From: Luteolibacter sp.
Lineage (GTDB): Bacteria > Verrucomicrobiota > Verrucomicrobiia > Verrucomicrobiales > Akkermansiaceae
Assembly (NCBI GenBank): GCA_030696085.1
Contig: JAUYNL010000104.1
Span: 1-64,000 of the forward strand
Reading direction: 5' to 3'
DNA length: 64,000 nucleotides
Within the stretch, counting starts at the first letter, position 1, and every line of letters starts with the position of its first letter. The notes under the pieces were generated by a model. That model did no database searches. It was not told where the DNA came from and was given only the letters and a program-made list of their open reading frames with translations. Of the stretch, positions 33,512 through 37,292 are shown piece after piece. Both the position numbers and the translations under genes were made by a program.

Positions 33512-34417
33512 ATGGTTTTCAATCGCCGCGTGACCCCGTCCACCCTCAAGTCCTGCGTGCTCGCCGCGCGTCCCAAGACCCTGCCAGCGGCCGTCGTGCC
33601 GGTGTGGGTGGGCTGCGTGCTGGCATGGAAACTCAGCGGTGACTTCGATCCCCGGCTGGCCGCGTGCACCCTGTTCGGCGCGCTGGCCATCCAGATCGCG
33701 ACGAATTTTTTCAACGATGCCATCGACGCGCGGAAAGGCGCGGACACCGCAGGCCGGCTAGGACCGGTGAGGGTGACGGCCTCCGGTTTGTTGTCCCCGC
33801 GCACGGTGATGAGGCTGGCTGTCGGGTTTCTCGGCATGGCGCTGGCCTGCGGGGTGGTTCTCTATCAGGCGCGTGGCTGGCCGATCGCGCTCATCGGCGT
33901 TCCCTCGTTGTTTCTCGCTTATGGTTATACCGGAGGTCCGTTTCCGCTGGCATACCGCGGGATGGGCGAGTTGTTCGTGATTCTTTTCTTCGGGCTGGTG
34001 GCGGTGGGCGGCACTGTTTTCATCCAGACCGGCGGCTGGCCGCGCGAGGCGCTTTTGTTAGGATTGCAGGTCGGCCTGCTCTCGGCGGTGCTGATTTCGA
34101 TCAACAATTTCCGCGACCGCGAGGAGGACTCCGGCACAGGAAAACGCACGCTGGCCGTGCGCTGCGGGCCGAAGGTGGCGGCCTCGGTGATCTGGCTGGA
34201 AATCAAGCTCGCCGCCTTCGCGGGGCTGGCCTGGCTGGCGCTGGACCAGCCGCGTTTCATCTTCGCGAGCATCCCGGTGCTGCTGATCGGCCTGCGCATC
34301 ATCTGGGGAGTCTTCACGCTCCCGCCGGGTCCGGGTTTCAACCGGCTGTTAGCGCTCGGCGGCGTGCAGCTCGTGCTCTTCGCGGCGGTCTATCATGTGG
34401 CTGCGGCGGTCGCTTGA
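33512..34417 (+). CDS. menA: 1,4-dihydroxy-2-naphthoate polyprenyltransferase
   Basis: 301 residues, multi-pass membrane UbiA-family enzyme. It attaches an isoprenoid chain to dihydroxynaphthoate in menaquinone synthesis. The Asp-rich prenyl-diphosphate motif is NFFNDAIDARKGAD; the second, typical of MenA, is NNFRDREEDSGTGKRTLAVR. Several hydrophobic helices are evident, for example LAVGFLGMALACGVVLY and LFVILFFGLVAVGGTVF. Its presence indicates menaquinone-based respiration. It sits 39 bases after uvrC and ends almost against the convergent exonuclease/RuvX frame. No other men gene is in view. Confidence 0.95.
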   Translation: MVFNRRVTPSTLKSCVLAARPKTLPAAVVPVWVGCVLAWKLSGDFDPRLAACTLFGALAIQIATNFFNDAIDARKGADTAGRLGPVRVTASGLLSPRTVMRLAVGFLGMALACGVVLYQARGWPIALIGVPSLFLAYGYTGGPFPLAYRGMGELFVILFFGLVAVGGTVFIQTGGWPREALLLGLQVGLLSAVLISINNFRDREEDSGTGKRTLAVRCGPKVAASVIWLEIKLAAFAGLAWLALDQPRFIFASIPVLLIGLRIIWGVFTLPPGPGFNRLLALGGVQLVLFAAVYHVAAAVA

Positions 34418-34419
34418 AT

Positions 34420-34860
34420 TCAGGATCCCATCCAGGTGTTGAGGATTTCGATGGCGGCGGCCTGGTCGATGACGGCCTTTTGATGGCGGCTCGACCGTCC
34501 GGCTTCGCGGAGTTTTGCGGCGGCGCTGGAGGTGCTGAGCGATTCATCGACGAACACCAGCGGGATTTCCGGGATGCGCTGGCGGAGTTGATCGGCAAAG
34601 GCGCGGACCTTGGCGGCGGATTCGCCCTCGCTGCCATCCATCCGGAACGGCAGGCCCACGACCAGGGTGCGGATCTTGCGGATATCGGCGAGCCGGGCGA
34701 TGCGTTCGATCGGATCCATCCGGCTGCGGTCGATGGTTTCCACCGGGTGGGCGAGGATCCCGAAATCATCGGTCGCGGCAATGCCGATGCGGGCGTCGCC
34801 GTGATCGATGCCCAGTGCCGGGTGCGGGGTGTCGGGGTGGCTTTTCAAGGAGGGAACCAT
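34420..34860 (-). CDS. ruvX: RuvX/YqgF Holliday junction resolvase module with its own possible start
   Basis: An ATG at 34860, in frame with the longer coding region, would give a 146-residue protein (MVPSLKSHPDTPHPALG...), the normal length of RuvX. The RNase H-like fold residues are present: Asp in GIDHGDARIG, Glu in VDESLSTSSA and Asp in IDQAAAIEIL. RuvX proteins act in 16S rRNA 5' maturation and/or Holliday junction resolution and are essential in many bacteria, so independent translation from this ATG is plausible even if the upstream part is decaying. No Shine-Dalgarno sequence precedes it, which is usual in this window. Confidence 0.5.
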   Translation of the reverse strand: MVPSLKSHPDTPHPALGIDHGDARIGIAATDDFGILAHPVETIDRSRMDPIERIARLADIRKIRTLVVGLPFRMDGSEGESAAKVRAFADQLRQRIPEIPLVFVDESLSTSSAAAKLREAGRSSRHQKAVIDQAAAIEILNTWMGS

Positions 34861-36570
34861 GGATTTCCGCAAAGGATCCCGCGGGGAAGGGGAGCAGGCT
34901 GTGGCCTGCGCGTCTGCGAGACGTCGGTGGCGTGCGAGCACGGCGATTTCTCCGGGGTCCGCGCCGCAGGACATGGCGCGCTGGAGTTCATCGGGCTGGG
35001 CGTGGCAGGCTGCGGCCAGCGCTTCGAGCAGCAGCAGGGGATCAATGCCGAGGCGGAGATCGCCGTTGAGGAGTTTGAGAAGGGTCTCGCTATCCGCCGG
35101 GTGCAGGGTGGCGAGGCGTTTGGCCAGGCGGTGAACGCGCTCCATGGAGGCGGCGCTGTGGTGGAATTCCCCGATGAAGGCGGCGGTTTCCGTGAGATCG
35201 AGCGGGGCGGGCTGGAGGTGGAGTTCCTGAAGGAAGAGGCGGGCGCTGCGGGTGCGATCACCGGATGCGAGATGGATGTTGCGGTAGCGTTCGGCACGGG
35301 CACCTGGAATGGCGGCGAGCGCGTGGCGGAGGGTGGAGGCGTCCATGGGTGGCTGGCGCTTGCCGGTGCTCTGCGGCGGGAAATCACCGGCGAGCCAGCG
35401 CACGGCGATGCGCAGGTCCTTGTCGTTTTCCAAGCCGCCGAGGTAGGATTTGAGAAACTCGGTTTTGGCGACACGGCTGCCGGTTTCCGCCACCAGGCGG
35501 CAGAGATCGCTGAAGTCCGCCAAGGGGCAGGCGATGCGTTGGTGCGAGGAGCCGCGTGCGGCGGGTTGGCGGTGGGCCGGGCGATGGATGGAAAACTCCA
35601 ATTGGTCGCCTCCGGCGGCGCACCAGGCATCCATGCCGCTGGCGCGGAGTTCCGCTGCGAATTCCCGGGTGAAGCCGTGGACGGTGAGAATCCGGCGCGG
35701 GTGGACGCGCTGGATGCATTCCATGAGGCCCGGATGGTCGGCATGGTCGGAGAGCGGGATCATCGCATCCACGCGGTAGCGGTATTTCGCGCCTGCTTGC
35801 AGCGCCCAACCGCTGAGCATGGCGCTGCGTTTTGTTTTCAGCCCGCGGAGCAGCTTGGTGCGCATGGCGTGGGGTGGGGCGATGACCACATGGCCGGGCG
35901 GCGCGTGGCCGTTGAATTCGGCGGGTTCCGGCAATCCGGGGACACCGGCCTCGCGGCAGGCGCGCGTCATCTCGGCGGCCGCCGGGTGGAGCAGCGCGGG
36001 AATTCCGTGTTCCTCGAGCAGGGCCAGGGCCTCCTGGGCCTTTCCCAATGAATAAGCGAGCAGGATGGGCGTCGCGCCATCGGAGAAGCTGTCATGCACG
36101 AAACGCAGGATTTCCGCCTCGATTTCCATCGGGTTGGGAAATTCGTAGCCGGGCAGTCCGAAGGTGGTTTCGAGAACCAGGGTATCGGCTGATAGAAAAT
36201 TGGCGGTTTCGGCGGTGCGGCTGCGGCGGGTTTTGAAATCGCCGGTGTAGAGCAGGGTGGCGTTGTCGGAAATACGGGTCACATGCAGCATCGCGGAGCC
36301 CGGAATGTGTCCGGCCGGCAGCAGGCGCAGGCGGAATCCATTGCGAACCAGCGGGACATGGAATGAGGTGGCATCCAGGCGGTTCGTGGCGAGGCGGAAG
36401 CGCTGGTGCAGCAGCAGGCCGGTGGTTTCCGAACAAATCACCGATTCGTGGCGTGCGAAGTGATCGGCGTGGGCGTGGGAGACGAAGGCGCACGGTTTGG
36501 GATCCGATGGATCGAGCCAAAGGTCCGGCTCCGGCAGGTAAAGGCCGCGTTGGAATCGCACTTCGATCAC
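34420..36570 (-). CDS. Metallo-beta-lactamase exonuclease / DNA ligase N-domain / RuvX continuous frame
   Basis: One uninterrupted frame. With the GTG at 36570 it is 716 residues; it is open to a TTG at 36672, and GTG at 36588 is another option. Residues 1-330: metallo-beta-lactamase/beta-CASP-like nuclease (VSHAHADHFARH, LPAGHIPGSAM, LYTGDFK, PLSDHADHPGL) like the ligase-associated DNA exonuclease. About 350-565: the N-terminal DNA-binding domain of ATP-dependent ligases (FSDLCRLVAETGSRVAKTEFL; ASGDRTRSARLFL; LLKLLNGDLRLGIDPLLLLEAL). The adenylation domain with KxDG and the OB domain are absent. Residues 571-716: complete RuvX (GIDHGDARIGIAATD, VVGLPFRMDGSEG, VDESLSTSSAAA). In other bacteria exonuclease and ligase are separate neighbours, so a deletion of the ligase core that joined its remnant to ruvX is likely. 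Whether one fused protein is made is unknown. Confidence 0.8.
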   Translation of the reverse strand: MIEVRFQRGLYLPEPDLWLDPSDPKPCAFVSHAHADHFARHESVICSETTGLLLHQRFRLATNRLDATSFHVPLVRNGFRLRLLPAGHIPGSAMLHVTRISDNATLLYTGDFKTRRSRTAETANFLSADTLVLETTFGLPGYEFPNPMEIEAEILRFVHDSFSDGATPILLAYSLGKAQEALALLEEHGIPALLHPAAAEMTRACREAGVPGLPEPAEFNGHAPPGHVVIAPPHAMRTKLLRGLKTKRSAMLSGWALQAGAKYRYRVDAMIPLSDHADHPGLMECIQRVHPRRILTVHGFTREFAAELRASGMDAWCAAGGDQLEFSIHRPAHRQPAARGSSHQRIACPLADFSDLCRLVAETGSRVAKTEFLKSYLGGLENDKDLRIAVRWLAGDFPPQSTGKRQPPMDASTLRHALAAIPGARAERYRNIHLASGDRTRSARLFLQELHLQPAPLDLTETAAFIGEFHHSAASMERVHRLAKRLATLHPADSETLLKLLNGDLRLGIDPLLLLEALAAACHAQPDELQRAMSCGADPGEIAVLARHRRLADAQATACSPSPRDPLRKSMVPSLKSHPDTPHPALGIDHGDARIGIAATDDFGILAHPVETIDRSRMDPIERIARLADIRKIRTLVVGLPFRMDGSEGESAAKVRAFADQLRQRIPEIPLVFVDESLSTSSAAAKLREAGRSSRHQKAVIDQAAAIEILNTWMGS

Positions 36571-36670
36571 ACGCTGCGGATCATGCACAAGTCCGGCGGG
36601 CCGCGCCAAGGGAAACCGTGCGCCCGCGATGAGGAAAATGCGGGATGGCGGTCTTTCGATTGGTAGAGTC

Positions 36671-36705
36671 AAAAAAAAACGGAACCGCGGCCGGGCAGTT
36701 CCGTT
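36671..36705 (-). terminator. Intrinsic terminator of ssb
   Basis: Read on the minus strand: AACGGAAC pairs with GTTCCGTT (plus 36698-36705 with 36678-36685), followed by a run of nine T residues ending at 36671. It lies 30 bases after the ssb stop. Confidence 0.88.
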
Positions 36706-36735: not shown

Positions 36736-37221
36736 TCAGAACGGAATGTCGTCCTCTTCCTGGAATTCGTCCGGCGGTGCGGCGGATGCGCCTTGTGGTG
36801 GGCCGGAACGTTGCTGCGGGGAGCTGGCGCGCTGCTGTGGAGGGGCTCCGCCGCCGCCGTTTCCGCCGGCCGGGGTGGCTCCGCCGCGGCCATCGGGAAG
36901 GAATTGGAGGCTGTCGCCCACGACCTTGAGTTTGCTGCGTTTCTTGCCGGTTTCCTTATCGTCCCAGGTATCCATTTGGAGGCGGCCTTCGATGTAAGCG
37001 CCGCGGCCTTTGGTGAGATATTGTTGGGCGAGTTCGGCCTGGCGGCCCCAGAGGGTGACATCCACGAAGGTGGTGTCCTCCTGCTTTTGTCCCGCGTCAT
37101 TGACCCAGACGCGGTTGATGGCGAGGGAAATGTCCGCAACAGCTTTGCCGCTGGGGGTGTAGCGCAATTCGGGATCCCGGGTCAGGTTCCCGATGAGCAT
37201 GACTTTATTGAGATTGGCCAT
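36736..37221 (-). CDS. ssb: Single-stranded DNA-binding protein
   Basis: 161 residues. OB-fold at 1-110 (MANLNKVMLIGNLTRDPELRY, TTFVDVTLWGRQAELAQQYLTKG, GAYIEGRLQMDTWDD), then a Gly/Pro/Gln-rich linker, then the acidic tip EEDDIPF that binds partner proteins of replication and repair. Last gene of the pth-rpsF-ssb run, 71 bases after rpsF, followed by a strong terminator. The rpsF-ssb pairing is common; rpsR, often next, is not here. Confidence 0.97.
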   Translation of the reverse strand: MANLNKVMLIGNLTRDPELRYTPSGKAVADISLAINRVWVNDAGQKQEDTTFVDVTLWGRQAELAQQYLTKGRGAYIEGRLQMDTWDDKETGKKRSKLKVVGDSLQFLPDGRGGATPAGGNGGGGAPPQQRASSPQQRSGPPQGASAAPPDEFQEEDDIPF

Positions 37222-37292
37222 AGCGGTGGAAAAAGTGGGGGAAAGGAGAACGGAAAGCAAGACGAAATGCTGTTCTTTCGAACAAACAGCAA

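Follow-up and report, generated by a model that had tools for sequence, protein, structure and literature searches.

Fusions of a metallonuclease to the ligase LigB are known from Opitutus terrae and from Dry Valley metagenomes (PMC10140301, citing Ejaz and Shuman 2018). In the accessible part of that account, the nuclease module was insoluble and was not assayed, and the role of the nuclease in Exo-ligase fusions is given as undetermined. The same part places Lhr and a phosphodiesterase in the O. terrae gene cluster. The fused frame described here is encoded by a Luteolibacter sp. genome (G000; other G numbers denote genomes of the same genus). It resembles the Exo-LigB proteins, as far as the accessible account portrays them, in carrying an N-terminal MBL nuclease followed by the ligase N-terminal DNA-binding domain (LigN) in one chain. 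G000 and ten relatives differ from these proteins in having neither the adenylation nor the OB domain. A further difference is that Lhr belongs to the cluster in O. terrae, but no match to Lhr was found in G000 at E 1e-30. A literature search, with subscription journals mostly outside its coverage, found no published account of Exo-LigN without a catalytic domain or of a LigN-RuvX fusion.

The window is the whole analysed stretch of 64,000 nucleotides. The first-pass annotation had proposed that a single open frame joins an MBL exonuclease, a ligase N-domain and a complete RuvX, and open reading frame analysis together with profile matches confirms this frame as assembled. The features are as follows:

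34420..36570, minus strand: fused Exo-LigN-RuvX frame, 716 codons plus stop, with start codon GTG at 36570
35626..36552, minus strand: MBL-fold exonuclease, TIGR04122-like, residues 41-349
34897..35523, minus strand: LigN, ligase N-terminal DNA-binding domain (PF04675), full length, residues 384-553
34849..34896, minus strand: linker between LigN and RuvX, predicted to be disordered (pLDDT <50)
34420..34848, minus strand: complete RuvX, with PF03652 at residues 619-748 and a probable native start at TTG 34848
34845..34847, minus strand: stop codon in the next frame, overlapping the ruvX TTG (TTGA)
36736..37260, minus strand: ssb, the upstream neighbour of Exo-LigN, followed further upstream by pth, ctc and prs to 40021
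33512..34417, plus strand: menA (TIGR00751 above cut-off), convergent with ruvX

The minus-strand frame is free of stops across 34420-36672, and the ORF caller placed its start at TTG 36672, yielding 750 aa. Domain residue numbers follow this 750-aa version. The start at GTG 36570 is the one that aligns with MIEVRF of relatives. A chance open frame without real domains was ruled out by the profile E-values. A plus-strand frame of 795 aa at 33664-36051 of the window runs antisense to the exonuclease and overlaps menA, and is probably a GC-rich shadow ORF.

The exonuclease has the ligase-associated exonuclease family TIGR04122 as its best NCBIfam match (residues 41-349, E 4e-60). It scores 203 bits, below the curated cut-off of 325, and departs from that family in having no ATP-ligase domain. 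Residues H66, H68, D70, H71, H122, D145, H310 and H332, which include the HxHxDH motif and which we take to be the MBL metal ligands, are invariant in an alignment of 20 rows. The closest solved structures by sequence include the nucleases CPSF, SNM1A, Apollo and Artemis. Among the best 50 Foldseek rows, the hits are MBL/beta-CASP nucleases or complexes containing one; Cas14 rows with rmsd near 27-32 were disregarded. Trimming of DNA ends is a plausible activity of the exonuclease. The LigN domain of G000 covers profile positions 2-174 of 174 (32.4 bits against a cut-off of 24.6) and aligns with residues 6-209 of the PDB 3gde ligase. A structure model gives it a helical fold at high confidence, except for a loop near 435-439. 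Residues 591-629 have very low confidence in the same structure model, which was built on an alignment without RuvX relatives and has low confidence in its RuvX part. The earlier statement that the ligase part stops short of the adenylation domain is borne out, with PF01068 absent from the frame and homology to whole ligases ending just past LigN. PF01068 is also absent from the G000 genome (96% complete), and the possibility of a split ligase, with the catalytic half encoded at another locus, was rejected on this basis.

All 73 genomes of the genus match the query somewhere, and this exonuclease is present in 46 of them (G000 included). The other 27 have nothing better than E 2e-5, the remainder being other MBL proteins. 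Whole Exo-ligases in one frame of 900-963 aa occur in 21 of the 42 genomes with a classified architecture, and also in more distant Verrucomicrobiae such as Chthoniobacter flavus. Four genomes (G064, G060, G093 and G067) stayed unclassified in these counts through contig-end cuts or sequence that was not retrieved; G064 is drawn as Exo-only in the exonuclease tree. Exo-LigN proteins ending at most about 80 residues after LigN are encoded by ten genomes (G091, G086, G078, G072, G080, G035, G087, G082, G028 and G018). Five of these (G035, G018, G078, G072 and G087) have weak PF01068 matches above cut-off in other frames of 260-401 aa. The exonuclease stands alone in three genomes (G073, G070 and G007). 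Exo-only frames at the loci L154, L155, L157, L160, L161, L162, L164, L166 and L168 end directly after a conserved DQ(L/M/I)E, which sits between Exo and LigN in the longer forms. Damaged or incomplete ligases are found in seven genomes. Three of these ligases are interrupted by a frame break or contig end (G026, G008 and G010), and one misses part of its end (G021). In the other three, motif I is altered and the last 40% of the catalytic part has no match: KYDG reads EFVG in L089 (G029), ECRG in L088 (G075) and KYRG in L091 (G032). In these frames the catalytic part (312 residues) had no match past about residue 187, nor was there an OB match, and they are apparently dead ligases retained in frame with the exonuclease.

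The exonuclease-domain tree (51 rows) places G000 with G091, G086, G078, G080, G082, G073, G070 and G007 at a support of 100/100. None of the nine genomes in this clade has a catalytic domain at the exonuclease gene, and LigN is gone as well in three. Branching within the clade is weak (84/41), hence the history of its members is only roughly known. A second Exo-LigN group comprises G035, G087, G028 and G018 (95/90), with the motif-I-altered frame of G075 as sister, and G072 falls apart from both. A single loss of the catalytic domain for all ligase-less genomes was rejected, as one clade formed by grouping 14 rows by architecture received a p-AU of 0.003 (G064, whose frame runs off its contig, was omitted). 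Tree placement and the rejected single clade indicate repeated loss of the catalytic domain, which in the G000 lineage preceded the join with RuvX.

RuvX (YqgF) is essential in E. coli, and no second ruvX match was found in the G000 genome. The G000 copy is a complete member of the family PF03652 (125.3 bits against a cut-off of 29.2), with the conserved columns intact. It keeps 51 of the 52 columns that are invariant among 25 relatives and has an ordinary branch length, and decay of RuvX after the join was rejected on these grounds. The copy differs from its family in being preceded in frame by Exo-LigN and in being displaced from the manC-ruvX-truA order. The first-pass annotation had assigned RuvX an ATG of its own. 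An in-frame ATG does lie upstream at 34860 (34858-34860), but the probable native start is TTG 34848. A similarly placed TTG, a few codons ahead of the conserved SPHPALGIDHG or TPHPALGIDHG, is found in G091, G086 and G022.

The gene order around the fusion combines two ancestral blocks. As in G000, the exonuclease gene lies behind ssb in G091, G078, G080 and G082 (Exo-LigN) and in G073 (Exo alone), and prs, ctc and pth lie further upstream; for G073, pth was the only match beyond ssb and a frame that is presumably rpsF. The first-pass annotation would have counted related genomes with an intact ligase at this position as evidence against it, and none was seen behind ssb. Conversely, no ssb was seen in the retrieved flanks of whole Exo-ligases. 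In G086, of the same clade, Exo-LigN lies away from ssb. Relatives with the ssb-Exo order have ruvX elsewhere, and the order manC-ruvX-truA is found in G003, G013, G086 and G091 (with manC of G091 under the curated cut-off). The G000 copies of manC and truA sit on contigs 90 and 4, respectively, and neither comes within 1.5 kb of a contig end. The ruvX-menA pair is shared only with G022 among the genomes that match menA (68, counting G000). G022 does not carry this exonuclease; upstream of its ruvX lies other sequence and, at a greater distance, a short manC-like end (by eye). Inspection by eye of L185 (G022) at 1-1448 also showed toxin-antitoxin-like genes ahead of ruvX, and the contig seems to begin with transposase-like sequence. 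Because ruvX is detached from manC and truA and the ssb-Exo order is shared with relatives, a rearrangement, or a wrong assembly, placed ruvX behind Exo-LigN. The join is found in one of the 73 genus genomes, G000, and is absent from the 80 loci listed in a second, overlapping collection, of which four run off their contig. Among these 80 loci, ruvX lies near Exo once (L107), on the opposite strand, and never in the Exo frame. The earlier proposal of a deletion that joined the remains of a ligase to ruvX merges what were two separate events, the catalytic loss being older and shared across the nine-genome clade and the RuvX join being seen in G000 alone.

We suggest that the 5' three quarters of the frame represent a ligase-less descendant of an Exo-LigB repair fusion. 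LigN would let the nuclease dock on nicked, gapped or duplex DNA, and sealing would be left to another ligase. The ancestors of G000 would already have had such a ligase-less Exo-LigN when ruvX, in the lineage leading to G000, left the manC-ruvX-truA neighbourhood and landed directly behind it, in frame and with no intervening stop. Provided that the sequence is correct, any ribosome that completes Exo-LigN must go on to make Exo-LigN-RuvX. The work of RuvX could be done by the fusion, by a product of an internal start (ATG 34860 or TTG 34848) or by the two together. We regard the join as most likely a tolerated accident rather than a selected three-domain machine. A shared frame of two adjacent genes is unremarkable, as it arises with a chance of about 1 in 3 given adjacency and long open frames often lie upstream of ruvX in this GC-rich genus. 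We hold the account as a whole, from an ancestral ligase-less Exo-LigN to a later in-frame arrival of ruvX that was probably a tolerated accident, to be somewhat better than an even bet. Points against it are the observation of the join in a single genome, the ambiguous codon usage of the linker, the mostly faster evolution of LigN where the catalytic domain is missing, the additional loss of LigN in three genomes of the clade and the weak branching inside that clade.

An assembly artefact, which the first-pass annotation had considered at 34.86-34.95 kb, or a sequencing indel is possible but clearly less probable, and would mean that Exo-LigN and ruvX are unfused, whether or not they are neighbours. 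One frame over, LigN is followed by a proline-rich tail, like that of several relatives, ending in a TGA that overlaps the probable ruvX TTG. Given a frame change just after LigN, this stop at 34845..34847 would terminate Exo-LigN, and a change of one base, real or artefactual, would separate Exo-LigN and ruvX. By eye, the +1 frame could also give LADAR, the reading of G091 and G086, in place of the LADAQ of the fused frame. In G086, the stop of Exo-LigN overlaps the ATG of the next frame in the same coupling-style way. Furthermore, the junction is the meeting point of two ancestral blocks. An artefact is opposed by codon usage in the linker (19 codons), where the fused frame beats +1 by 5.4, a difference as low in 13% of true-frame windows and as high in 2.5% of off-frame windows, though the +2 frame, which is also open, scores higher still. 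Since this third frame scores best, the linker may descend from a non-coding leader. The 211-base junction also occurs only once in the assembly, about 35 kb inside a 78-kb contig.

Returning to the preferred account of an inherited Exo-LigN, selection on LigN points to a domain that still works. PF04675 is above cut-off in all six of the ten Exo-LigN proteins scanned, with the match in G018 ending at 159 of 174, and no stop codons interrupt LigN in the ten genomes. The dN/dS of LigN (NG86) is 0.15 at dS 0.31 for G028-G018, 0.18 for G035-G087 and 0.17 for G087-G028. The pair G000-G091 has 0.32 (NG86) or 0.18 (YN00), and whole-ligase pairs range over 0.05-0.19. Distant ligase-less pairs reach 0.38 (G078-G091) and 0.50 (G080-G082), or are not computable (G091-G086), with synonymous sites near saturation. 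At Exo identities of 72-76%, LigN identity is 70% in 48 whole-ligase pairs versus 48% in three Exo-LigN pairs; at 80-84% it is 69% in both. LigN without a catalytic domain is constrained, though for the majority of comparisons not as tightly as in whole ligases. Values well below 1 argue for a stump retained as a working domain, and the mostly faster evolution suggests that part of its role may have been relaxed after the loss of the catalytic domain. The earlier idea of a real architecture, in which LigN brings the nuclease to DNA, gains from the ten other genomes with Exo-LigN, from purifying selection and from the full-length LigN. For the attached RuvX, nothing favours a selected role.

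The Lhr helicase (TIGR04121) is above cut-off in 16 of 21 whole-ligase genomes versus two of ten Exo-LigN genomes (G078 and G072), and is not above cut-off in G000. With G000 included, 16 of 21 versus two of 11 gives a Fisher p of 0.003, kinship ignored. It looks as if Lhr and the ligase domain had been dismantled as one pathway. Most Exo-LigN proteins have a short tail in place of the ligase end, often rich in Pro, Ala or Asp. The tails of G086, G072 and G082 contain QLPF, QLSF and QLPL, respectively, and those of G091, G080, G087 and G078 contain ELPF, ELPL, TLSL and DLGV. The consensus for bacterial clamp binding is given as QLxLF in the accessible part of PMC4549789, and that of PMC10421592 gives QLPLWG as the clamp-binding motif of ImuB. 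Some Exo-LigN tails resemble such a C-terminal motif of beta-clamp binders as these excerpts present it, but none holds the full QLxLF. The pattern QL[PSD][LF] is found in three of ten Exo-LigN tails versus three of 619 background C-termini, and was chosen post hoc among related tails. A looser clamp-like pattern, likewise post hoc and among related species, gives five of ten versus seven of 619. Clamp-like patterns are absent from G000, G035, G018 and G028, and the putative clamp-binding tails are a lead only.

A broader scenario connects these observations. The Exo-LigB/Lhr system might have been recast at least twice into a ligase-free exonuclease, with LigN finding the substrate and often a clamp-like tail, and RuvX would replace the tail in G000 to give a nuclease, a DNA-binding domain and a second nuclease in one chain. 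We consider this scenario doubtful. Still less likely is that Exo-LigN is the dying remnant of an abandoned ligase pathway, with G000 one step further. The absence of the exonuclease from 27 of 73 genomes, the skewed occurrence of Lhr, the three Exo-only genomes and the higher dN/dS of the distant pairs would fit such decay, but the low dN/dS in measurable pairs, the uninterrupted LigN frames and the invariant metal-site residues of Exo speak against it. Least probable of all is a selected three-domain enzyme in which LigN brings exonuclease and RuvX to nicks or junctions, coupling resection and cleavage: all three domains are complete with family-conserved residues kept and ruvX has no second match, yet the arrangement is absent from the 72 other genus genomes and the 80 loci listed in the second collection, its short disordered linker merely replaces the Exo-LigN tail and ruvX leader, and an in-frame arrangement has a chance of about 1 in 3.

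The ligase-less nuclease recurs in related species, and the join with RuvX, seen in G000 only, could be an accident or an error. If the join is real, a protein that is normally essential is produced in fused form. The genus offers a natural series, from whole ligases through motif-I-changed ligases without an OB match and Exo-LigN to Exo alone. This series reveals separable parts: with ligation and Lhr both gone, the nuclease and the DNA-binding domain can still be retained. The persistence of these parts makes the exonuclease's own function testable in the ligase-less species.
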